From a virus, in the IMG/VR virus record IMGVR_UViG_3300042307_002019, positions 1 to 48,430 of that record: a stretch of 48,430 bases of DNA. The stretch is one strand, 5' to 3'. Under the pieces are notes generated by a model. The model had not been told where the DNA came from. It worked only from the letters and a program-made list of their open reading frames with translations, and searched no databases. How positions within the stretch are numbered: the first letter of the stretch is position 1; each line of letters starts with the position of its first letter. Below are positions 9,046 to 28,930 of the stretch, piece after piece. The translations under genes were made by a program, and so were the position numbers.

Positions 9046-10611
9046 ATGACTTCCAACGATCCAAATAAGTCTCTTTACGATAAAAGTCAAAAAGACATAG
9101 CCCAGCAAACCGAAGCTCAAAGACAATCATCTGGAAACGTTGCTCAAAAAAAAGCTAGTGATCAAAAAGTAGTCAGTCAGCAAAAACTAGAATCAGCTAA
9201 TGAACCTAAATCAAAAGGTGTTCAAGGCTCTGCTGAACAAAGGGAGGTAACCTGCCCAACTTGCGGAGAGCAAGCTAAAATTAAAGACAGGGTTGCAGGT
9301 AAAAGATATTTTAAAATTCCGTTTCTTAGTTGGAAGGTTCCTAGAATATGGGAAACTGTTGTTCCGGCTAAAACCTTTGATGAAAATACAGAAGTTTGCG
9401 GAGCTTGTAAGGGAAAGAAAAAAATCAAAGACGTTACTGATGATTCAGCAAAATACAAACAAGTTCAGCAAAAGCTCGAACAAAATTCAGAAAAGCTTTT
9501 AGAAGCAGAGGCAAAACTTGGTCTTGGTGGATCTCGTACAACGTTTATTGCAGGCAGCGAACTACTCAATGTTGGTTTGGGTTTTAATAGAAATAAAACA
9601 TACGAGCAAATTAAAGACGGAGGAATTGCTCCTTCTGTAGGAGGAGGAGAAGGAAAACAAAAAATTCCTCAAGCAAATTCGAAACCATCAACAGCTACAG
9701 TTGGCAAACAAGGGCAAATTGCTTGGCCGCAGCATGTAGGAAACTATACAATCAAATGTGCGAATAGTTTTAAATTGCTTGCTGGTGCTGGTGGAATAAC
9801 TCTTGCAACAAACGGACCTTTAACGATAAGTGCTGGAATTATGAGATTTTCTGGTCCTCAATTGTCTATTGGAAGCTCAACCGGTCCTTTAACTCTCGAA
9901 GGAGAGTCTGTTGTAATGACAGGAAAGCACGTAGCAATTGCCCCAACTGGAGGACAAGCAGTTGTTAGAGGAAGTATAGCACATACAGGCAATTGTGTAA
10001 CTATCGGTCACACTCATTCTGAGGGCATATCATTTATAAAAGCTACTGCTGTCGGAGCGCCTAAACAATCTTCTACAGATAAAGCAAACATGGACGTCTT
10101 ACAAACTCAACCAGCAATTTGGGGAGGTCTTGGAATTAAAGGAATAGTAAACAGCATTTTAGATTTAAAACTATTTTATGATACAGTTCCAGCAAATTAT
10201 GAAACTGCAGCTCAGCGTTTGGTTTCGCCGGCTGAAATGGTCAACACCAGCGACAGAATGGCCACTCTCAGCAAAATGATGATGCCATTTGAACCAGCTC
10301 CGGTTGGCGTAGCTATAATACCTGGTACCCCTCCTATTACTATACCGGTATATCTTTATCCACACATTCACGGCATGCCGGCAATGCAGCATCAACACGA
10401 TACAAAAGTTCCAGATATTCAACTCGTAGACACGCCAGAACAACTAAGAGCACAAATTAATAACTCCTCTCTTGAATCTGGAGCTCCAGCGGATTTGCAA
10501 AAAGATAGCGCATCAAGATCCAAAGAAGAAGCAATGGGAATACCAGCTCTAGCTGCAAATATCAAAAAAGATTTAACTGAATCGACTTCCAGGCCTATTA
10601 AATTAGCTTAA
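9046..10611 (+). CDS. Putative central-spike / needle protein with zinc ribbon
   Basis: The 521-residue product has a Gln/Lys-rich N-terminus, then a four-Cys zinc-ribbon-like segment (CPTC at 70-73, CGAC at 118-121). A helical linker precedes a beta-helix-like region (about residues 240-320, with NSFKLLAGAGGITLATNG and GPLTISAG), then GHTHSEG, and further on PHIHGMPAMQHQHD. Paired His residues are typical of metal-binding spike tips such as P2 gpV and PAAR-like proteins. It follows the hub gene by 37 bases. A membrane-piercing spike extending the hub is the best inference. Confidence 0.7.
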   Translation: MTSNDPNKSLYDKSQKDIAQQTEAQRQSSGNVAQKKASDQKVVSQQKLESANEPKSKGVQGSAEQREVTCPTCGEQAKIKDRVAGKRYFKIPFLSWKVPRIWETVVPAKTFDENTEVCGACKGKKKIKDVTDDSAKYKQVQQKLEQNSEKLLEAEAKLGLGGSRTTFIAGSELLNVGLGFNRNKTYEQIKDGGIAPSVGGGEGKQKIPQANSKPSTATVGKQGQIAWPQHVGNYTIKCANSFKLLAGAGGITLATNGPLTISAGIMRFSGPQLSIGSSTGPLTLEGESVVMTGKHVAIAPTGGQAVVRGSIAHTGNCVTIGHTHSEGISFIKATAVGAPKQSSTDKANMDVLQTQPAIWGGLGIKGIVNSILDLKLFYDTVPANYETAAQRLVSPAEMVNTSDRMATLSKMMMPFEPAPVGVAIIPGTPPITIPVYLYPHIHGMPAMQHQHDTKVPDIQLVDTPEQLRAQINNSSLESGAPADLQKDSASRSKEEAMGIPALAANIKKDLTESTSRPIKLA

Positions 10612-11724: not shown

Positions 11725-12513
11725 TTACTTATTATTTTGTGCTTTATAGTTTTCAATTTGTTCGACGATGAATTTAAGAATTTCCGAACGCATGATATCT
11801 TCTTTGCCGAACTCTATACAGTAAATTCCTTGATCACGAGCTTGTTCGGTATTAAAAATGTCAAACATTGGCTTAAAACCAGATTGATCTTTGTGCTTTA
11901 AGTCCGTTTGCATTGGATCTCCTAAGATAAAATACTTTGTAAACTTTCCAATGCGAGTAAGACAAGTTAATAACTCACCAAATGTGCTATTTTGAGCTTC
12001 ATCAACAATAACTGCTTTAGCGTTATATGATGCTCCTCTGAGATAGTTTACAGGCATGCCCTTGACTCGTTCGTCTGCGTGTAATTTTTTAATATCTCCA
12101 GCTGGCAGTAATTCTTCTAGTTTGTCGTTTAATACTGCAGTAAAAAATTGTAACTTTTGCTCGGCATCTCCAGGAAGCGTGCCCATAGAAGTAGAAGCGC
12201 TTTCAATAATTGTTCTGACATAGACAAGATCGCTCACTTTTTTTTGATTTAGTAAAAGCAATGCACAATAAACTGAAAGAACGCTCTTACTCGTACCCGC
12301 TGGACCAGACAGAAACACCATCTTAGTATCTTTGTGTGTAGCTAATTCAATAAAAGCTTTTTGCTTTTCCGTCCAATCTAATCCTCTTAAACATAAATTA
12401 AAGTCAATTTTTTCTCTTTGATGAACTCTCGGAGAAGTGTCTTTTGTTGGTTCTTTTGCAGAAGAAGTTTTTGCTGTTGCTCTTGCTTTTGTTGGTTTTT
12501 TTAATTTTTTCAT
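11725..12513 (-). CDS. phoH: PhoH-like P-loop ATPase
   Basis: The 262-residue product has a basic, Ala/Thr-rich 30-residue leader, then the PhoH core: Walker A GPAGTSKS at residues 70-77, VRTIIESASTSMGTLPGD (a PhoH hallmark) near 99-115, Walker B VIVDEAQN at 168-175, and ILGDPMQTD. PhoH proteins are common in marine phages and are RNA-helicase-related ATPases whose role in infection is unsettled. A hairpin lies 12 bases before its ATG (see the feature at 12526). Confidence 0.93.
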   Translation of the reverse strand: MKKLKKPTKARATAKTSSAKEPTKDTSPRVHQREKIDFNLCLRGLDWTEKQKAFIELATHKDTKMVFLSGPAGTSKSVLSVYCALLLLNQKKVSDLVYVRTIIESASTSMGTLPGDAEQKLQFFTAVLNDKLEELLPAGDIKKLHADERVKGMPVNYLRGASYNAKAVIVDEAQNSTFGELLTCLTRIGKFTKYFILGDPMQTDLKHKDQSGFKPMFDIFNTEQARDQGIYCIEFGKEDIMRSEILKFIVEQIENYKAQNNK

Positions 12514-12928: not shown

Positions 12929-14497
12929 ATGGACTATCGCTTAAAATTATTGTATGAGCAGATGCTCAAAGGAGAACCTGTAAAACAAATTTCTAAAGAG
13001 CAACCTAAAAGCCTAACAGAAGCTTATAGAACGGTTTTAACTGAAAGAACAGCATTTTATGCCAAAGAAGTACCTTCGGATCAAGAAATACAACCAGAAA
13101 TATTAGGCTTAGATTCCTTAGGAACCGTTCCGCAAGCAGACAGAATTAAATTTTTAATTGCATCCCAAACAGCAAAGCCTGAAGTAAACAAATTAATGCT
13201 TGCTGCTGGCAACTGGACAAATGTTGATAACTACGAAGAAGATTTACTTGGTCCAATTTCAACTGAATTGTTTGCTGCTGGGTTTGGAATAAATGAAATT
13301 TCAAAATTAATTGAAAACAAATCAGTTCTTAATAATTTTTCCCAACAAGTGGCAGCAGAAAAGTTTTTTAACACGATGTCTGATTCTGTTGTTCCAAATT
13401 TAAATGCATTACTTCCAAAAATAAGCACTAGCAAGCTAAACGATTTGTACAAATATTGCTTTACGAAAAAATGCAAAATTAACGACATTGCTGTGGGGTT
13501 TGGAGAAATAGCGTTGTCGTTGTTTACTGATTGCAAAAAAGGCAAAGTTGGAGATTTAGACAGTCCAACAGCAGGAGCAATTGAAGTAAAAACAAATGGA
13601 GGAAGAATTGCTAAAAAAACACAAGTTAATACAAACTACAAAGAGTCTCTAATAGAATTTCTTAAAAATCAAGATGCTAAACAAAAAGTTAGCAAGTCAA
13701 TCTCTACATTGAAACACAACGTAGAGGAACAAATTGATCGAATTAAAGAGGATAATAAATTTGTTAATGTTTTTACAAACAAATACGAAAAATATATTAC
13801 CAACTTAATTGCTAGTATTGGTACAAATAACTTTTCTAAATTATATGCTAATAGCCCTTTCAAGGATGTTGTTCAAGGTAAGGCCAGCACAATTTATCAA
13901 AAAGCTTTACAGAACGGTTTTGTTGTCGGTCCCACAGAACACAGTTCTCCGGTACCTGAATCATTAAAACAATATGTGCTTGATACTCATAAACTATTGT
14001 CTCAAATTTTTAGAGACAAAAAACTTCACGGGCAATACGAATCCATACTAAGTACAAGTCAAGCTGTTGTCGATGTATCTAAATTATCCGTATGGGATTC
14101 TATTCAGTACTTCTTTTTTACTGATTTTGGTTTTACCACAAAACAATTAGCTGAAGGTTTATTGCTATTGGTTAACCCAAAGGCCAGAGCTACTGCTGAA
14201 GAATTTTTGCCAGAAATTGAACAATTTTTTAATTCTAAATATGCTAAATCTCTAAAAGCAGGAAATATGAGAGTTCTTAAGGGGTTAATTTTTGCATTAC
14301 AAGTTAGTATATACGCAAAAGGTTTATTCGATTATTTATTTGTTGTAAATACCTTAACGTTTGAAGGAATTGGATTTAAAACAGGGTCATTGTTTGATTT
14401 GTTTGAAAAATTTTATAAAAATGGCGATAGATTTTCGCTTGATATTGATTTGGATCCAGATAGAGGAGGCTCAGCAATTTCAGTTAAATCAGCTTAA
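12929..14497 (+). CDS. PD-(D/E)xK nuclease-like virion protein candidate
   Basis: The 522-residue product has a nuclease-like segment at about residues 188-226: VGFGEIALSLF, then GDL, then GAIEVKTNGGR. Glu193, Asp209, Glu219 and Lys221 match the order E...D...ExK of restriction-like PD-(D/E)xK folds. The remainder is mostly helical. The N-terminus (MDYRLKLLYEQMLKGE) is an amphipathic helix ending in Glu, like a capsid-targeting sequence cleaved by gp21-type proteases. A late-type promoter supports virion packaging. The nuclease activity and the packaging are inferences; a purely structural protein remains possible. Confidence 0.65.
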   Translation: MDYRLKLLYEQMLKGEPVKQISKEQPKSLTEAYRTVLTERTAFYAKEVPSDQEIQPEILGLDSLGTVPQADRIKFLIASQTAKPEVNKLMLAAGNWTNVDNYEEDLLGPISTELFAAGFGINEISKLIENKSVLNNFSQQVAAEKFFNTMSDSVVPNLNALLPKISTSKLNDLYKYCFTKKCKINDIAVGFGEIALSLFTDCKKGKVGDLDSPTAGAIEVKTNGGRIAKKTQVNTNYKESLIEFLKNQDAKQKVSKSISTLKHNVEEQIDRIKEDNKFVNVFTNKYEKYITNLIASIGTNNFSKLYANSPFKDVVQGKASTIYQKALQNGFVVGPTEHSSPVPESLKQYVLDTHKLLSQIFRDKKLHGQYESILSTSQAVVDVSKLSVWDSIQYFFFTDFGFTTKQLAEGLLLLVNPKARATAEEFLPEIEQFFNSKYAKSLKAGNMRVLKGLIFALQVSIYAKGLFDYLFVVNTLTFEGIGFKTGSLFDLFEKFYKNGDRFSLDIDLDPDRGGSAISVKSA

Positions 14498-14515
14498 ACT
14501 TTTATAATTACTCGT

Positions 14516-15766
14516 ATGCTTAAAACATCCTTTCGTCAATTTTTTAAAGAATCTTCTGATCATCTTATTACAGAAGAAACTGAAGGAGTTTTAAAACACC
14601 TTACACATTTGGAGGAACTTATTCTTACTTCTAAACAAGAAGGTTTGAATATTGCTATACAATTTTTGAAGGAGCTTTATGATACGTTTAAAGGAAAAGT
14701 TGACTCAAAAACGTTTACAAGTATTAAAATTGATGGAAGTCCCGCCGCAATAGTTGGAATTAATCCAGAAAATGGAAAGTTCTTTGTATCAACAAAAAGT
14801 ATCGGAAACGTTAATCCAAAAATTAACTATACCGATGAAGATATTGACAGGAATCATGGCCATGCTCCTGGACTTGTAAAAAAACTTAAGTTAGCATTAA
14901 AATATCTTCCTGCTGTTATTAAAGATGGTGTTTATCAAGGAGACTTCATGTTTGACCAAGAAGATCTCAAAAAACAAAACGTTGAAGGAGAAGATTTGAT
15001 TTTGTTTAAGCCAAATACTATAACATATGCTGTCGAACAACATAGTCCGCTTGGCCAAAGAATTTTAAATTCAAAAATTGGAATTATCTTTCACACAAAA
15101 TATTCAGGACCAAATTTACAAAACCTTAAAAAAAGCTCGGATGTTAATGTTTCCGAATTTAATCAAACACAAGATGTTTTTGTAGATGATGCTAAATTCA
15201 AAGACGTTTCTGGAGTTGCTACGTTCACAAAACAAGAATCTGATAAAATTCAAACGCTGATTGATGCTTCTGTTACAGCTGGAAATAGAATTAAATGGGA
15301 TGATATTCCTGATAACGTTTATTCGTTTCTCAATGCTTTTATTAACAGTTTAATTCGTCAAGGAAGGTTTGTAGAAAAACCTCAAGAAGAATATGATAAT
15401 TTTGTTCAATGGATTACAGCAAAAGCTAACAAAGATATCGAAAAAATGAAGACAGAAAAGGGCAAAACTCAGAAACGACAAGCTCTTAATTCATTCTTAT
15501 CCAAACTTGAATCTTCTAAGATGGATATACTTAACTTGTTTAATCTTACAAAGAAGTTAGAACAAGCAAAGTCGATGTTTATTACGAAGTATAATTCTGC
15601 AATTAAAACTAAACAGTTTCTTACTCAACCGGACGGAACACTAAAAGTGACTGCTCCTGAAGGGTATGTTGCCGTAGATCATCTTGGCAATATGGTAAAA
15701 TTTGTCGATCGACTTTCTTTTTCTGCAGCCAATTTTGCAATTTCAAAAGGAGAAAAGTTTAAATGA
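14516..15766 (+). CDS. Ligase-like nucleotidyltransferase (KxDG) with capsid-targeting-like N-terminus
   Basis: The 416-residue product contains IKIDGSPAAIVG with the KxDG signature of DNA/RNA ligases and capping enzymes (Lys71 as candidate adenylated residue). GVYQGDFMFD (about 138-147) resembles motif III, and EDLILFKPNTITYAV and KIGIIFHTKY could hold later motifs. The N-terminus MLKTSFRQFFKES resembles the MKTYQEFIAEA-type capsid-targeting peptide of T4 internal proteins. The C-terminal 120 residues are Lys-rich and helical. It overlaps the NMNAT-like gene by 4 bases. It may be a member of a phage family known only by a DUF number; ligase activity is not proven. Confidence 0.75.
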   Translation: MLKTSFRQFFKESSDHLITEETEGVLKHLTHLEELILTSKQEGLNIAIQFLKELYDTFKGKVDSKTFTSIKIDGSPAAIVGINPENGKFFVSTKSIGNVNPKINYTDEDIDRNHGHAPGLVKKLKLALKYLPAVIKDGVYQGDFMFDQEDLKKQNVEGEDLILFKPNTITYAVEQHSPLGQRILNSKIGIIFHTKYSGPNLQNLKKSSDVNVSEFNQTQDVFVDDAKFKDVSGVATFTKQESDKIQTLIDASVTAGNRIKWDDIPDNVYSFLNAFINSLIRQGRFVEKPQEEYDNFVQWITAKANKDIEKMKTEKGKTQKRQALNSFLSKLESSKMDILNLFNLTKKLEQAKSMFITKYNSAIKTKQFLTQPDGTLKVTAPEGYVAVDHLGNMVKFVDRLSFSAANFAISKGEKFK

Positions 15767-16410
15767 AAACTTTTAAGCAATTTTTTACGGAACAATCAGA
15801 AAGCAAGATTGTTGTAATTTTTCCTGGAAGATTCCAGCCATTTCATATCGGTCATAAAAAGCTATACGATTTAGCAAAAAGCAAATTTCCTAATGCTGAT
15901 TTTTATATTACTACAGCAAATCCAACTGCTCAGCAAATTGCTCAAGAACCAGATCGTTATCCATTTACATTCGAAGAAAAAAGCAAAATAATTCAAGCAA
16001 CCGGAATTCCGTTAGACGAAATTATACAAACGTCTACTCCATACATACCAAAAGATTTACTTTCTAAATACAACCCAGAAACAGATAAGGTTGTGTTTTT
16101 AGTTGGGGAAAAAGACATGAAGGAAGATCCTCGTTTTGGTTTTAAACCTTTAAAGTCGGGAAAGCCAAGTTATTATCAACCACTTCAAAATGTAGAAGAG
16201 ATGGTTTCTTTTAAAGATCACGGTTACATCTATGCTCCATCTACAATTACATTCGTAGTTAATGGCAAAACAATTAAGAGCGCTTCTGAGCTCAGAAATA
16301 TGTTTGCTACAGGAGAAGAGCAAGTCAGAAAAGACATTGTCACTGCTTTAGTTGGAAAATATAATCCTGAGGTATACAAAATTCTTTCTAGCAAGTTAAC
16401 AAAAGCTTAA
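15763..16410 (+). CDS. NMNAT/cytidylyltransferase-like protein (HxGH) with capsid-targeting-like N-terminus
   Basis: After a 13-residue N-terminus (MKTFKQFFTEQSE) very like T4 internal-protein targeting peptides, the sequence reads IVVIFPGRFQPFHIGH. This is the class I nucleotidyltransferase signature (GRFQPFHxGH, His28 and His31) of NMN or pantetheine-phosphate adenylyltransferases. Later, SASELRNMF fits the C-terminal (I)SxSxxR motif. The 215-residue length fits the family. Members transfer AMP or CMP to a phosphorylated small molecule, often making NAD. T4-like phage KVP40 also encodes an NMNAT. It is coupled to the ligase-like gene, which suggests a joint role. Confidence 0.85.
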   Translation: MKTFKQFFTEQSESKIVVIFPGRFQPFHIGHKKLYDLAKSKFPNADFYITTANPTAQQIAQEPDRYPFTFEEKSKIIQATGIPLDEIIQTSTPYIPKDLLSKYNPETDKVVFLVGEKDMKEDPRFGFKPLKSGKPSYYQPLQNVEEMVSFKDHGYIYAPSTITFVVNGKTIKSASELRNMFATGEEQVRKDIVTALVGKYNPEVYKILSSKLTKA

Positions 16411-16424
16411 TAAATAAATAAATA
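16409..16424 (+). promoter_or_regulatory. Tandem TAAATA late-promoter-like motifs
   Basis: Overlapping TAAATA units (AATAAATAAATAAATA) fill the space between the NMNAT-like stop and the ATG at 16430, consistent with a T4-type late start for the next gene. The exact functional unit cannot be chosen by eye. Confidence 0.5.
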
Positions 16425-16429
16425 AAATT

Positions 16430-17299
16430 ATGACTAAAAATTTCGACACGCTTCTTGAATCAATGCTAGCTGAAATGATGCCAGCAACAATGATGGATGA
16501 CATGGGAACAATGACTTCAAAGGTAACAAAAAAACTCGAAGAACTTCCTGGCAAATCTCAGCACTGGGGCCCTCTTCAAAAGCTCAGTCCCGAAACTCGT
16601 GGAGAAATCGTAAAAACAATTATTAAAAACGTATTTGCTGATAATGACGAAAACACCTATTCAACTACAATTGACAATCCAGAGCAATTAAAAGATGCTG
16701 TTAAGACTGCAATTAAAACCGTAGCTGAACAAAATCCAGAATTTAAAGCAAGCGGTAAATGGGCTGTACAATTCCTTGCTGATCGTCTAGCTAATAAAGA
16801 ACTTTTGGGCAATGTAAAATACACAACAATGAGCGGAGACGACATTCTTCAAAAAGACGCTACACAAAAAGAAATTAAACAAGCTCTCAGAAAAGCACTT
16901 GAACAAGCCCCAGCAAAAGAAGAAACAGCTGTTGCGCAAGAGCCTGAACAAACAGAAGAAACTGACGCAGAAACAGAAAAAGAAGTAGAAACTGTTTACG
17001 TAAAAGCAGCAGATCTTAATTCTGATGATTCTGATTTACAAAAAGCTTTCAAAAAGCTTCCAGATGATAAAGAAATGTCTTGGGAAGAAGTTCTTAAATC
17101 AATTGGCATGACAAAAGGTATGGCTTTAATTGACGCAGGAGGCCTTTCTGAAATCGAAAAAGAAAAAGAAGTTGGAGAAGAGGAAGACGTACAAGCTTTA
17201 GAATTTGACGACGAAGATACAGCAGATTTGTCAAATTTTGATAAACTGATTGACCCATACTTTAGCACAACTAAAGGAAGCTATAGTTATGAGGATTAA
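16430..17299 (+). CDS. Acidic internal/core-type protein candidate
   Basis: The 289-residue product begins MTKNFDTLLESMLAEMM, a helix with an LAE site that suits T4-type prohead protease cleavage. The body is helical to about residue 160. A Glu/Thr-rich acidic linker follows (EETAVAQEPEQTEETDAE), then a folded-looking region with MSWEEVLKSIGMTKGMALI, then an acidic tail. It resembles scaffold or internal head proteins in composition but I know no specific family. A strong terminator follows, closing the cluster that starts near 12929. Confidence 0.65.
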   Translation: MTKNFDTLLESMLAEMMPATMMDDMGTMTSKVTKKLEELPGKSQHWGPLQKLSPETRGEIVKTIIKNVFADNDENTYSTTIDNPEQLKDAVKTAIKTVAEQNPEFKASGKWAVQFLADRLANKELLGNVKYTTMSGDDILQKDATQKEIKQALRKALEQAPAKEETAVAQEPEQTEETDAETEKEVETVYVKAADLNSDDSDLQKAFKKLPDDKEMSWEEVLKSIGMTKGMALIDAGGLSEIEKEKEVGEEEDVQALEFDDEDTADLSNFDKLIDPYFSTTKGSYSYED

Positions 17300-17371: not shown

Positions 17372-18523
17372 ATGATACGTTACACTTTTGATTTTGAACT
17401 GCAGACGATGAGTACTATGTTTCTTAATAGTATGTCGGATATCATGATTAAACGGTTCAATGTTCACAAAGAATCCCGAGATCAAATTAAAACTCGTATT
17501 GTTTATGCTCCAAAGCAACGAGTTTTAGCAGACCTTTCAGACAAAGATCAAAACCTCCAGCTTCCCGTAATTTCTTGTTATATTGGAGGAATAGCTCGAG
17601 ACCAAGGCAGAGTTTTTAATAAAATTCTTGGTACATTTCACACTCCACCTCAAAGTACTTCAAGCATTAATGAAAAGGGAACTCTTCCGATCGACGTAAC
17701 ATACAACGTTTCTATAATGACAAGATATCAGCAAGATATGGATCAAATCTTGTCCCATATATTACCATACGTTAATCCATATTTTACTGTTTCGTGGAGA
17801 ACGCCGAGTAGGCCAGACTTCGAAATTCGTTCGAACGTATTTTGGAACGGTAATGTTAATATTCAGTATCCATATGATATTGCTGCTACTCAAGTTGCAA
17901 GAGTCGTTGCAGATTTATCCTTTACGTTTAAAGGCTGGTTGTTTCAAAATCCAGATGAAATTGGTAATACGTTTACGTTCAATACTGCATTTACAAATAA
18001 CATAGCAAATATTCCAATAGAGTATTTGCTTGAGTCTTCTATCAGTGAATCTACGGATAATGTTGATTATGTTACATATAGCGCAGCTCCTCCTGAACCA
18101 AAAGTGATTGAACCGTACTATTCTTATGTAGGCACGTTTCAACAATTCAATGTTTGGGGTTCTGGCTTTGAGCGAATTGAAAACGTTTATTTGTCTGGAG
18201 CTCCATTGAGCAGTATATCTACCACACAAAATCCTTTTTCAGCTAGCTCAACTCTTTCTGCAGATTATCCTTCATTCTTTGCTGTTAAATTGCTATCTTC
18301 TGAATGGTCTTTTGATAGAGAAAATTTCATGACTTTTGTCATGCCTTCTGCTAATATACCAGGCAAACTCGACATAATTGTAGAAAACCCTGTTAGTTAT
18401 GGAAAATTAATCGGAAACGTAAAAGTTAATAGTTTCAACCCGTTCCCTGTAGGAAGTCACGAGTACAATTCATTTGTTCCATATCAAATGCCGTATCTTT
18501 CAGGAATCGACATTAGACAATAA
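17372..18523 (+). CDS. 15: Tail sheath stabiliser gp15, with C-terminal Ig-like extension
   Basis: Residues 1-200 align by eye with T4 gp15. SIMTRYQQDMDQILSHILPY in this protein corresponds to the T4 segment SIFTRYEDDMFQIVEQILPY, and LSFTFKGWLFQNPD corresponds to LTFEVNGWMYPPVD. gp15 caps the sheath and joins the tail to the head. The protein has 383 residues against about 270 in T4. The extra C-terminal part (about 245-365, with SYVGTFQQFNVWGSGFERIENVY) resembles an IPT/TIG-like Ig fold that could decorate the neck. It stands alone between a terminator and a small gene. Confidence 0.88.
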   Translation: MIRYTFDFELQTMSTMFLNSMSDIMIKRFNVHKESRDQIKTRIVYAPKQRVLADLSDKDQNLQLPVISCYIGGIARDQGRVFNKILGTFHTPPQSTSSINEKGTLPIDVTYNVSIMTRYQQDMDQILSHILPYVNPYFTVSWRTPSRPDFEIRSNVFWNGNVNIQYPYDIAATQVARVVADLSFTFKGWLFQNPDEIGNTFTFNTAFTNNIANIPIEYLLESSISESTDNVDYVTYSAAPPEPKVIEPYYSYVGTFQQFNVWGSGFERIENVYLSGAPLSSISTTQNPFSASSTLSADYPSFFAVKLLSSEWSFDRENFMTFVMPSANIPGKLDIIVENPVSYGKLIGNVKVNSFNPFPVGSHEYNSFVPYQMPYLSGIDIRQ

Positions 18524-24050: not shown

Positions 24051-25493
24051 TTAGAGATATGTTGCTGCTTGACCAGGAACGAACGATTGTCCGAGGCCTG
24101 TGCAGATTACCAAGTGGTAGTATAATGATGCACCAAAAATGTGATCAACTACACCATATCTTGTAAGCAATCCAACACGTGGGCTGAAGTCGTTTGGTCC
24201 GATTGTACGTTGAACCATTACAGGGATGTAAGGGCAATATACGATACCGGAATCGTAATACTCAGATCCTTTGTATCCGAGTAGTGCGTAATCTACGGGT
24301 TTCGTACGAGCTGTCGCATAACCGCCACCTGCATTTGTTGCAGTGTAACCAGCATTGATCTGAGCTTCTGTACGAGTGTCACGATAGATTTGGAAACGAC
24401 CACCGACCGAACCGACCTTAGCAATACCAACTGGTTGTGTGTTTACATTACCGTTAACTGGCATCCATGTGAAGTTTGGAAGAGTCTCGAGGATAGCGCA
24501 AATACGAGGTGTTGCAATGATGAAATTAGCAGCACCACGACGATTGCGGATAGCAACACGGTTAGCTTCAACAACGATTCTGTTGTAGAAGTCACGTGCG
24601 CGTTCTCCAGACCAACGACCGTCAGCAGAGATAGCAGACCAGGTAGAATAACCAACACCAGCGCCGGCATTGAGACAGACTTGGATCATACGCGCGATCA
24701 TTTCGCGGTCGATTTCAGCTTGAATCTCATATGACATAGCGTTAGTAAGCTCAGCATCGATATCGATACCGTTCATATTTTTAAGATCCTGTTCGAGTTC
24801 AACAGACCATTTAGCTGCTAACCTACGGGTAAGAGCTTCAACGGCTGTCTTTTCAAACGAAACAGTGATTTGAGGAATCTTCGAAGAAAGTTCGAATTGG
24901 CTGATAAGTGCACCAACACCAGCGTCTTCAACGAGGCTGTCCCATTCAGTTCCACCGCTAAGGGCAGCTGAAGAAGCACCTGTGAATGCTGTGTTGAGGT
25001 AGTTATAACCAAGCTCTTTTCCTTGTGAAGTTGCTGTGTTACCACCAGTAGCTCCAGATCCATTGGATCCGTCACCGTTAGCAGAATAACCGAGAGCGGT
25101 TTCTTCATACTTGTAGCGCATTGCGAATGCAAGGCCGACAGGTCCGGTCATTGGTTGTACCCCAACGATCTCATTTGTGATGAGTTCAGGGAAGGTACGA
25201 CGAATCATCGGAATAAGGACTTTTGGTAAACGTGCGTCACCAGTAGCATAATTGTCACCAGAGAATGTTGTTGCAGTACCTTGATGAGTACCGAAGACAC
25301 CACCTGTAGCGGCAGAGTTGCTGTTTTCACGTAAGCACCATTTTTCTTGGTTTTCAAGAAGAATTGCGGTGTTTAAGCGGGTTGTTTCGTTAGTGATCTC
25401 AGAAACTTTGTCGGACTTGAAATCCAATACTGGAGTCCACTTCTCGACGAGTTGTTGAGCGTAATCTTTGTTAATATGCATTAAGTTTGACAT
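24051..25493 (-). CDS. 23: Major capsid protein gp23
   Basis: The 480-residue product is T4 gp23-like: TAILLENQEKWC near residue 42, then ELITNEIVGVQPMTGPVGLA and FAMRYKYEETALGYSANG, and a C-terminal YDSGIVYCPYIPVMVQRTIG followed by SFVPG. T4 gp23 is 521 aa. The N-terminal 50-60 residues should be removed by the gp21 protease at an (L/I)xE site; LLE48 or LRE56 are candidates. It has an AAGGA Shine-Dalgarno about 20 bases upstream and a more GC-rich codon mix, as expected for the most abundant protein. Confidence 0.96.
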   Translation of the reverse strand: MSNLMHINKDYAQQLVEKWTPVLDFKSDKVSEITNETTRLNTAILLENQEKWCLRENSNSAATGGVFGTHQGTATTFSGDNYATGDARLPKVLIPMIRRTFPELITNEIVGVQPMTGPVGLAFAMRYKYEETALGYSANGDGSNGSGATGGNTATSQGKELGYNYLNTAFTGASSAALSGGTEWDSLVEDAGVGALISQFELSSKIPQITVSFEKTAVEALTRRLAAKWSVELEQDLKNMNGIDIDAELTNAMSYEIQAEIDREMIARMIQVCLNAGAGVGYSTWSAISADGRWSGERARDFYNRIVVEANRVAIRNRRGAANFIIATPRICAILETLPNFTWMPVNGNVNTQPVGIAKVGSVGGRFQIYRDTRTEAQINAGYTATNAGGGYATARTKPVDYALLGYKGSEYYDSGIVYCPYIPVMVQRTIGPNDFSPRVGLLTRYGVVDHIFGASLYYHLVICTGLGQSFVPGQAATYL

Positions 25494-25531: not shown

Positions 25532-26494
25532 TTACCTAGCAAATCTGCTTAGGTTCTTCATCTCGTTCAGATAGCCGGTTACTTGATCACTTGATCCAGC
25601 ACGTTCAATCTCATTGTTAAAATCTTGTTTTTCCTCGAGGACCTGAGGACGATCGACTCGAGGAGCTTTTGTAAATTGGCTTTTGACAGATTCTTTGATC
25701 TCATCAACTTCTTCTTGTGTTTCTTTCTCAAACATCTCGACAACATATTGGAAATTTTCTTCAATATATTGAGGAGCTTTGTTTCCGAGAAGCTTAGTTA
25801 CGAATTGCTTTTTAGCAGAAGGCATATCAGCTGTTTTCTTTTCGAGGATGATAGAGGCTTCGGCTTTGTTTGCTCTATTGTTAAGTTGAGCATTTTCTTT
25901 GAGTGCTTCGTTGAGTTCAGCACGAAGAGAATCAATTGTCTTTTTACCATCAACCAAAGCTTCTTTGACTTCGTTGTCAATGAACTCTTCAGAAATACCA
26001 ACAATTTGGCGAATCTGAGCAAGTTGTTTTACTGCTTTGATGTTGTTGACAGCTTCAGTAATTTGTTCAGTTGGAATGCTCTTTTCGATGTAGAGATCAA
26101 GATAGTTAGAAACTTCTTCAACAAGACGCTCTTGGAAGCCTTTTGCTTCTTCTGCCATTTCACCTTCATACTTCTCAACTACTTGTTGGAGCATTTGTGT
26201 ATGCTTTTGGTCAATTCCTTTGATGAGCTTTTGAAGTTTAACCGCATGATCAGTATCGATTGCTTCAACAAGCTTTTTGAGCTTAGTAGTGTGATCAGCA
26301 TCAATTTTTTCGATTACCATTTCAAGCTTAGCTGTATAGGACTCATCAAGCTTTTGTTTGAGGTTTTCAGATTCAAGTTGAATCTTTTCTTGGGATTTTT
26401 CGTCGACTGCCTGCTGAAATGCCTCTTCGATTGTATTGAGAGTTTCTTCAGAAATCAGATCTTTGAACTGTTCGTTGAGAATATTCTTAATCAT
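25532..26494 (-). CDS. 22: Prohead scaffold (core) protein gp22
   Basis: The 320-residue product is almost entirely coiled coil (Lys/Glu/Gln-rich). It has an internal 14-residue repeat, KLEMVIEKIDADHT then KLKKLVEAIDTDHA then KLQKLIKGIDQKHT, at about residues 55-100. It sits between gp21 and gp23 as in T4. LVEE, LISEE and similar sites suit cleavage by gp21. The C-terminus ends GYLNEMKNLSRFA, a likely capsid-contacting helix. Confidence 0.93.
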   Translation of the reverse strand: MIKNILNEQFKDLISEETLNTIEEAFQQAVDEKSQEKIQLESENLKQKLDESYTAKLEMVIEKIDADHTTKLKKLVEAIDTDHAVKLQKLIKGIDQKHTQMLQQVVEKYEGEMAEEAKGFQERLVEEVSNYLDLYIEKSIPTEQITEAVNNIKAVKQLAQIRQIVGISEEFIDNEVKEALVDGKKTIDSLRAELNEALKENAQLNNRANKAEASIILEKKTADMPSAKKQFVTKLLGNKAPQYIEENFQYVVEMFEKETQEEVDEIKESVKSQFTKAPRVDRPQVLEEKQDFNNEIERAGSSDQVTGYLNEMKNLSRFAR

Positions 26495-26667: not shown

Positions 26668-27342
26668 TTAAGCAGACTTAAGGGCATTGATAAAATTAAT
26701 CAAATGTTCTTTTAGAAAAGCATCAGTCTCATGCTTTGGAAGTTTTACGAGACCTTCTTTGAGATTATTAAAAGCATTAGCAGAAATTTCGATAATTCTT
26801 CCATCGGTTCCCACCAACCATTCTTTAGATTCTAAAATAGATTCCAACATTGCATTTTGTACTGACGGTTGGTGAACAACGTCGAGACAAATAAGGTGGA
26901 AATTTGAAACGGTCTTACCACCAGAAGATTCAGAAAGATTTCCAAGACCACGAGTAGAGATACCCATTTGAATTTTGTCTTTAACCAAGCTCTTAAGAAG
27001 TTGGCCCATTGGAGTATCAAGAATCAAAGATTTACCCATGAAGTAGTTGCCGTTTTGTTTGAGTTCTGTAACAAGGTGACAAGCATTAACTGGATTAACT
27101 TCAGTTGACTGAGGATGGTTCATTTCGCCAATTGCTCGACGAGTTTTGACCATGGTATCTGTGTAACGAGCTATTTCTTTAGTCATCTCGTCGAGCTGAT
27201 AGATGCGGCCGTTTTGGTTTGGGCTATCAGCCATACAGTAAGGACCTGTAATATAATATTTTTGAGGCTCAGCAGAATTCTTTTCTTCAACAAGAAAGTC
27301 TAATTCTTCGTGCAATTCAGTAGTTAAAAACTTTAATCCCAT
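26668..27342 (-). CDS. 21: Prohead maturation protease gp21
   Basis: The 224-residue product has the herpesvirus-like serine protease pattern of T4 gp21: His76 in RAIGEMNHPQS, Ser129 in MGISTRGLG, and NFHLICLDVVHQPS with a conserved Asp and His. The N-terminus (ELHEELDFLVEE) contains sites for self-cleavage. It cleaves scaffold, capsid and internal proteins at (L/I)xE, linking it to the leader-like N-termini noted in this window. Confidence 0.94.
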   Translation of the reverse strand: MGLKFLTTELHEELDFLVEEKNSAEPQKYYITGPYCMADSPNQNGRIYQLDEMTKEIARYTDTMVKTRRAIGEMNHPQSTEVNPVNACHLVTELKQNGNYFMGKSLILDTPMGQLLKSLVKDKIQMGISTRGLGNLSESSGGKTVSNFHLICLDVVHQPSVQNAMLESILESKEWLVGTDGRIIEISANAFNNLKEGLVKLPKHETDAFLKEHLINFINALKSA

Positions 27343-28663: not shown

Positions 28664-28930
28664 TTACCAATTTTTGCAAGAAAAATATTTTGGCGTACCA
28701 GGTTTAGCATTTTTGCAACCATGTCTTGCTCTGAAACTTTTTCTTTTTTTAGAATTTGATTTTTTAATTCTTAGATTAGGATCACCATAATGAACTCGTT
28801 TAAGTTTTCCATTAACTCGAGCACACCTCATATATTTTTTATCCTTACGAGTAGACGCCATCTGCCCAGTAACTTTTGTGCATCTTCCAGCTTCTTCTAA
28901 AACTTGTTCGACCAATAATTGAAAGTTCAT
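28664..28930 (-). CDS. Small basic virion protein candidate
   Basis: The 88-residue product begins MNFQLLVEQVLEEAGRCT, a helix with an LEE/A site like those cleaved by gp21. The very basic body (KRVHYGDPNLRIKKSNSK, KRKSFRARHGCKNA, PGTPKYFSCKNW) follows a phage pattern seen in T4-like marine viruses. The four Cys residues might bind zinc. After leader removal it would be a small basic DNA-binding internal protein. The packaging is inferred. Confidence 0.7.
   Translation of the reverse strand: MNFQLLVEQVLEEAGRCTKVTGQMASTRKDKKYMRCARVNGKLKRVHYGDPNLRIKKSNSKKRKSFRARHGCKNAKPGTPKYFSCKNW

Follow-up and report, generated by a model that had tools for sequence, protein, structure and literature searches.

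Could four consecutive genes of a virus fragment encode proteins that are packed into the phage head and enter the host with the genome? This question is raised by positions 12929-17299 of the IMG/VR record IMGVR_UViG_3300042307_002019, the window analysed here being the whole 48,430-base virus fragment. The first-pass annotation had noticed that the four genes begin with short amphipathic helices ending in Glu, similar to those that take the T4 internal proteins and Alt into the prohead, and the four open reading frames and their N-termini are found exactly where it had placed them. Our results make it probable that these genes form a cassette of packaged cargo in a divergent T4-like phage, as supported by the specificity of the N-terminal tag, the detection of tagged relatives in virions, and conservation. 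Packaging is likely to deserve more confidence for genes 2 and 3, and less for gene 1, than for the cassette as a whole. The features of the cluster, all on the plus strand, are the following.

12929-14497 (+): gene 1, 522 aa, N-terminus MDYRLKLLYEQMLKGE; orphan body with a GD(L)...(E)VK motif, in a candidate PD-(D/E)xK-like nuclease slot
12929-12976 (+): leader of gene 1, MDYRLKLLYEQMLKGE, with LYE at residues 8-10
14516-15766 (+): gene 2, DUF6267 (PF19782, E=1.5e-97), covalent nucleotidyltransferase/ligase-like, 416 aa, N-terminus MLKTSFRQFFKES
14516-14551 (+): leader of gene 2, MLKTSFRQFFKE, resembling a capsid-targeting sequence (CTS; strict motif, defined below)
14567-14575 (+): I-T-E of gene 2, residues 18-20, best candidate prohead-protease site ((I/L)xE in the genus)
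14726-14737 (+): K71-I-D-G of gene 2, nucleotidyltransferase motif I (K71, D73 and G74 invariant)
15763-16410 (+): gene 3, HIGH-superfamily nucleotidyltransferase (NMNAT/cytidylyltransferase-like), 215 aa (PF01467, E=1.3e-10, above the curated cut-off)
15763-15792 (+): CTS-like leader of gene 3, MKTFKQFFTE (N-terminus MKTFKQFFTEQ); strict motif, in register with T4 IPIII MKTYQEFIAE
15844-15855 (+): H28-I-G-H31 active-site motif of gene 3, inside the PF01467 match
16430-17299 (+): gene 4, 289 aa, acidic, N-terminus MTKNFDTLLESMLAE; five homologues in the genus loci
16430-16474 (+): leader of gene 4, MTKNFDTLLESMLAE, ending in L-A-E ((I/L)xE in 6/6 genus members)

The leaders resemble the capsid-targeting sequence of T4

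Mutagenesis of the T4 IPIII leader MKTYQEFIAE has shown that residues 4 and 7 mainly direct targeting and residues 8 and 10 processing, and the T4 protease gp21 cuts after (L/I)xE (PMC9026906). We defined the strict CTS motif as [FY]xx[FY][ILFMV]xE near the start of a protein. Over the T4 genome (both strands, all start codons) this motif retrieves IPII and IPIII only. At the gene starts of the window it is found twice, in genes 2 and 3, against 0.03 matches expected from internal positions, and both genes thereby follow the general pattern of CTS cargo, in which aromatics near the start (roughly at positions 4 and 7) are accompanied by a hydrophobic residue (8) and Glu (10). Genes 1 and 4 carry looser leaders, DYRLxxxYxQ and NFDxLLExMLxE respectively, that are conserved in the genus, by which we mean the window and its five nearest relatives (L002-L005 and L065). 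The CTS-like character first given to all four leaders is hence borne out, in strict form for genes 2 and 3 and in a looser, genus-conserved form for genes 1 and 4.

We also tried a looser search pattern that allowed any aliphatic residue at the aromatic positions; it picked up several non-virion genes of cyanophage S-SCSM1 and was therefore discarded. Two other proteins encoded on the minus strand of the window have leaders of a second type ending in LxE, similar to those of genes 1 and 4: a small basic protein starting MNFQLLVEQVLEEA (28664-28930), and a protein starting MLTKKDSELLEEAYLSI (2200-2628).

Tagged proteins are found in cyanophage virions

Mass spectrometry of S-CREM2 virions detected 52 of 219 proteins (PMC10665884, Table 3). 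The strict motif is present in four annotated genes of this phage, encoding the SAM hydrolase gp6, the APH-like kinase gp14, gp136 and the cytidylyltransferase gp154 (a fifth match falls at a start codon internal to nrdA), and all four products are among the virion proteins of that table (P=0.003). Virion detection was reported for one of two motif genes in S-SCSM1 (NMNAT, MKSFLQFLKEA) and for one of three in S-SZBM1 (cytidylyltransferase, MRFRQFIIEA). When the three cyanophages with virion mass spectrometry are combined, 6/9 motif genes encode listed virion proteins, against 1.7 expected (P=0.0019).

A further case is GC190 of S-SM1, a cytidylyltransferase detected in virions (PMC3037559), whose N-terminus is MKKFSAFLNEA. 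The motif is kept in 80/80 of its relatives from viral contigs. None of them deviates at F4, F7, L8, E10 or A11, which include the four positions mapped in T4, and among the eleven positions variation is greatest at position 9, the x of the LxE protease site. Among these relatives the codons of F4, F7 and A11 vary synonymously with the residues fixed, and A6, L8 and E10 use a single codon throughout; the synonymous variation argues only in part against conservation of the leader as a DNA or RNA element.

In S-CREM2, two listed virion proteins are near-matches to the CTS motif, gp12 (Cas9-annotated, ...RFASFMAEA; L076:7704-10313) and gp13 (MKDLHSFLTEQ; 10310-10546); they lie beside the strict-leader kinase and SAM hydrolase, and the group may be another cluster that is injected. 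Near their terminase large subunit genes, S-SCSM1 and S-SZBM1 encode small proteins that are homologous to each other and have strict leaders (L070:44215-44535 and L092:22311-22628; MKTFKQFMSES and MKSFKSFLSES); these are not among the virion proteins listed for the two phages.

A retained tag with exchanged bodies

In the nucleotidyltransferase slot, the leaders of the genus are 56-69% identical to that of the window and 44-75% identical among all members, and the bodies fall into three types with 18-26% cross-identity. In the gene 1 slot, the leader is 44-50% identical among the window, L002 and L065, and the rest of the protein is at background (19-23%). Judged by these alignments, the tag is shown to be modular: it stays in the genus, and the body behind it changes in two slots. 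Interchangeability of the leader between unrelated bodies, as expected of a CTS and its cargo, is thus found in the genus, with leader identities of 44-69% against 18-26% for the swapped bodies of the nucleotidyltransferase slot.

The body of gene 1 itself had been described as PD-(D/E)xK-like. A GDL...IEVK motif is indeed present, in the string GKVGDLDSPTAGAIEVKTNGGRI, and is compatible with such a nuclease without being proof of it; the motif weakly suggests this identity. The protein has no family above chance in Pfam, PHROG, NCBIfam or PADLOC and no relative in searches of phages, viral contigs and genome contigs, and its single-sequence AlphaFold model is uninformative (pLDDT 36). One could propose that the packaged set consists of genes 2-4 only, gene 1 being an unrelated orphan and the nuclease idea wrong, as the lack of a strict motif, of a homologue and of a confident model in gene 1 would suggest. 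We regard this as unlikely, though it is the alternative that survives best, since L002 and L065 share the DYRLxxxYxQ leader in this slot, ahead of bodies that are unrelated. In more distant phages, moreover, the slot before DUF6267 holds many unrelated proteins, most of them with strict CTS leaders and D...(E/S)xK patterns, and in S-SCSM1 the protein that immediately precedes NMNAT bears a virion-protein annotation.

Near DUF6267 we also saw HAD phosphatase-like proteins whose leaders are CTS-like (L063:9116-9718, L033:1261-1893, L036:5850-6470, L050:5886-6551 and L052:1661-2290); the first of them has a match to polynucleotide kinase phrog_415 (E=4e-9). A PADLOC search of the cassette returned no match.

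Genes 2 and 3 encode nucleotidyltransferase-like bodies

Gene 2 is a full-length member of DUF6267 (PF19782 / phrog_455), a family annotated as of unknown function and present in about 400 phage records, which we assign to the superfamily of covalent nucleotidyltransferases. Across 29 diverse homologues that we aligned, K71-x-D73-G74, D143, E382-G383, K395 and R399 are invariant, and this is how motifs I, III, IV and V are arranged in such enzymes. The AlphaFold (AF2) model is good (pLDDT 86, pTM 0.82) except at residues 1-26 and the last six; residues 6-12 form a short helix of low confidence in the model, and from there to residue 26 the chain is disordered, which is what a removable propeptide should look like. 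The best Foldseek match in the PDB is T4 RNA ligase 2 (Rnl2, 1s68; E=0.18), and RNA ligases, DNA ligase adenylation domains and mRNA guanylyltransferases are over-represented among the first 50 matches. In a viral library, several RNA and DNA ligases are among the weaker Foldseek matches outside the family. A profile search of the PDB returned helical chance matches only, and hhalign aligned only the EGYVAV segment to T4 RnlB and RnlA and gave nothing useful with gp30. Membership of DUF6267 in the covalent nucleotidyltransferase/ligase superfamily is well supported by the motifs, the model and the fold lists, and the first description of gene 2 as KxDG ligase-like stands with it. Like Rnl2, the adenylation domains of NAD+-dependent DNA ligases and mRNA guanylyltransferase, gene 2 has the KxDG motif I, the motif III Asp, the EGxV motif IV and the motif V Lys and Arg; unlike them it has a long helical insertion (about residues 239-362), and it has no significant sequence or single-structure match to them.

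The leader is present in most DUF6267 members outside cyanophages and is scattered across several clades of the family tree, not of single origin; the count of changes on the tree is rough, as our leader regular expression misses variants such as SFYKE. Fusions of a HIGH nucleotidyltransferase with DUF6267 are found in L006, L008 and S-PM2 (protein A0A0M6VVW4), and we counted fusions with DUF6267 or with another KxDG ligase-like domain in favour of a cassette. Microcystis phage Mel-JY01 (L177:2432-4351) has a HIGH nucleotidyltransferase fused to a KLDG...EGIVF...YKLTG domain, a second ligase-like type with the same partner.

Gene 3 is firmly assigned, on its family matches, to the HIGH nucleotidyltransferase superfamily: besides PF01467 it matches phrog_395 (cytidyltransferase, 2.6e-10) and, above cut-off, TIGR00125. 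It had been called NMNAT-like from its HxGH motif. The HIGH-type enzyme is confirmed, and nicotinamide mononucleotide as its substrate is not established, as every NMNAT equivalog model scores far below cut-off and only the general adenylyl/cytidyltransferase domain passes. As for gene 4, searches of PHROG, Pfam and NCBIfam gave no family match above chance and tblastn gave no match in phages. Its sequence is not recognisably that of an enzyme, and we found no domain that would sustain an enzyme body for it.

Candidate cleavage sites and head-assembly genes

The window comes from a divergent T4-like phage, whose gp23 is about 33% identical to the capsid proteins of cyanophages, and it encodes its own protease, scaffold and capsid protein.

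26668-27342 (-): gp21-type prohead (head maturation) protease (phrog_207, E=1.6e-55)
25532-26494 (-): gp22-type head scaffold protein (phrog_237, E=9.2e-5)
24051-25493 (-): gp23 major capsid protein (phrog_138, E=4e-87; PF07068)
17372-18523 (+): gp15 tail sheath stabiliser, directly after the cluster (PF16724, E=7.5e-23)

A candidate LxE maturation site is present in gp23 (WCLRE|N), and CLxE with variable x is found at the expected place in three genus members. Within the leaders, (L/I)xE is found as ITE in DUF6267, LAE in gene 4 and LYE in gene 1; gene 3 has FTE. In gene 4 the site stands at residues 13-15 in 6/6 genus members (LAE, LAE, ISE, LNE, LSE, LSE). In DUF6267, Glu12 is not conserved in the genus, and the window and 5/5 relatives have a canonical (I/L)xE near residue 20 (LITE/FISE/ILRE/NLNE/IIVE/LLITE). 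The nucleotidyltransferase slot has an invariant FFxE|Q. The idea that the leader Glu is the cut point is thereby retained only in part: sites of the (I/L)xE kind are present, and the Glu that ends the helix is not always the likely one.

The genes had also been called late-type. This agrees with their position, and T4-type late promoters are not enriched in the window (exact TATAAATA: 2 found against 3.7 expected), so that we call the cluster late on its position only. Just upstream, on the opposite strand, lies a PhoH-like ATPase gene (11725-12513, minus strand; phrog_170, E=1.1e-55).

Are the tagged proteins packaged in the head?

Several observations weigh against a packaged cassette. Genes 1 and 4 fail the strict motif, and the gene 3 site has Phe at P3, not the Leu or Ile of T4; this breaks with T4 practice, so that for gene 3 the case for targeting is stronger than the case for cutting. 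Three of the nine motif genes are missing from the published virion protein lists, the authors of the virion proteomics themselves state that packaged and co-purified proteins cannot be told apart completely (PMC10665884), and the virion evidence comes from relatives in other phages, the window phage and its genus being known from their genes. The individual PDB fold matches of DUF6267 are insignificant (best E=0.18). Furthermore, in the cyanophages S-SM1, S-SZBM1, S-CAM22 and S-MbCM7 DUF6267 stands in the same gene order and has no leader. The first-pass annotation had named homologues conserved in place without leaders as a finding that would speak against it, and this is what we see in part: cyanophage DUF6267 is leaderless, and the adjoining cytidylyltransferase usually retains its leader (that of S-MbCM7 has none). 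Because of these leaderless proteins, packaging of DUF6267 is not universal; either it is restricted to some lineages or the protein enters by binding its neighbour.

These leaderless cyanophage proteins, together with the carry-over raised by the proteomics authors (PMC10665884), would also fit ordinary intracellular enzymes, in which the amphipathic helix serves oligomerisation or docking of a partner and virion detection reflects contamination. We consider this improbable, as the same leader is found ahead of bodies that have nothing else in common (SAM hydrolase, kinase, HAD phosphatase-like, nuclease-like and nucleotidyltransferases), virion detection in the published lists is enriched among tagged genes, and docking leaves an invariant Glu beside a free residue unexplained. 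Least probable of all is that the leaders are attachment signals for tail, neck or baseplate and the proteins lie outside the virion or in the tail, for although the cluster adjoins gp15, S-CREM2 gp136 lies among neck and terminase genes and the mass spectrometry used whole virions (PMC10665884), the residue pattern and register match an experimentally mapped T4 head-targeting propeptide (PMC9026906), LxE with a free x fits a prohead-protease site, and the strict start motif is in no annotated tail gene of S-CREM2 or T4.

Discussion

With packaging in the head as the probable reading, the cassette products would carry N-terminal propeptides of the T4 capsid-targeting kind. By analogy with T4, the propeptide would bind the gp22-type scaffold core during prohead assembly, and the gp21-type protease of the same window would cut it after Glu, as the site pattern suggests. 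The mature protein would then stay with the DNA and enter the host with the genome. The cargo would comprise the DUF6267 ligase-like protein, the HIGH-type adenylyl/cytidylyltransferase, a fast-changing and possibly, on weak grounds, nuclease-like protein, and the acidic protein.

As in the T4 internal proteins IPI, IPII and IPIII and in Alt, a modular leader of the same length, with aromatic, hydrophobic and Glu residues in the same register, precedes unrelated bodies in a phage with a gp21-type protease and a gp22-type scaffold. The T4 cargo consists of small internal proteins or an ADP-ribosyltransferase, whereas the bodies in the window are nucleotidyltransferases and a ligase-like enzyme; the gene 3 site differs by its Phe at P3, and packaging in the window phage is predicted from its genes. 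With the virion NMNAT/cytidylyltransferases of cyanophages (S-SM1 GC190, S-SCSM1 ORF91, S-CREM2 gp154 and S-SZBM1_140) gene 3 shares the HIGH superfamily and the CTS-like leader, and in S-SM1 and S-SZBM1 these proteins adjoin DUF6267, as in the window; gene 3, at 215 aa, is short in comparison and highly divergent. The presence of NMNAT-like proteins in the virions of cyanophages has already been published (PMC10665884, PMC9602691, PMC9146016, PMC3037559), and to that extent the module is not the new kind of co-injected set that it had been taken for. The accessible text of these accounts does not describe the leader as a signal for targeting. The principle, CTS cargo, is that of T4; the apparent novelty lies in the cargo, in explaining these virion proteins by a CTS, in the superfamily of DUF6267 and in the recurring cassette of a variable nuclease-like protein, a ligase-like protein and a nucleotidyltransferase.

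As to the purpose of the cargo, end processing of nucleic acids together with nucleotide or nicotinamide adenine dinucleotide (NAD) chemistry in the first minutes of infection, before phage gene expression, would be the most likely, in repair or counter-defence. The literature discusses NAD depletion as a defence, NAD synthesis by phages, NAD enzymes packaged in the head and RNA repair (PMC9503650). Ligase-like, adenylyltransferase-like and possibly nuclease-like proteins entering with the DNA would suit nucleic-acid repair or early replenishment of NAD. More tentatively, and with somewhat less than even confidence, a widespread, recombining T4-like cassette may deliver end-processing enzymes by a common tag (a variable nuclease-like protein, the DUF6267 ligase, the HIGH adenylyltransferase and sometimes a HAD phosphatase related to polynucleotide kinase), as a virion-borne repair and counter-defence kit, and the tag may allow one to read off which proteins are injected by T4-like phages of marine and fresh waters.

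The enzymes of cyanophage virions (NMNAT-like proteins, kinases and SAM hydrolase) have had no accepted reason for their presence, and a T4-type tag would explain them. DUF6267 gains a hypothesis for its function, and the tag, if true, would allow injected proteins to be predicted from sequence only in abundant phages of oceans and lakes.

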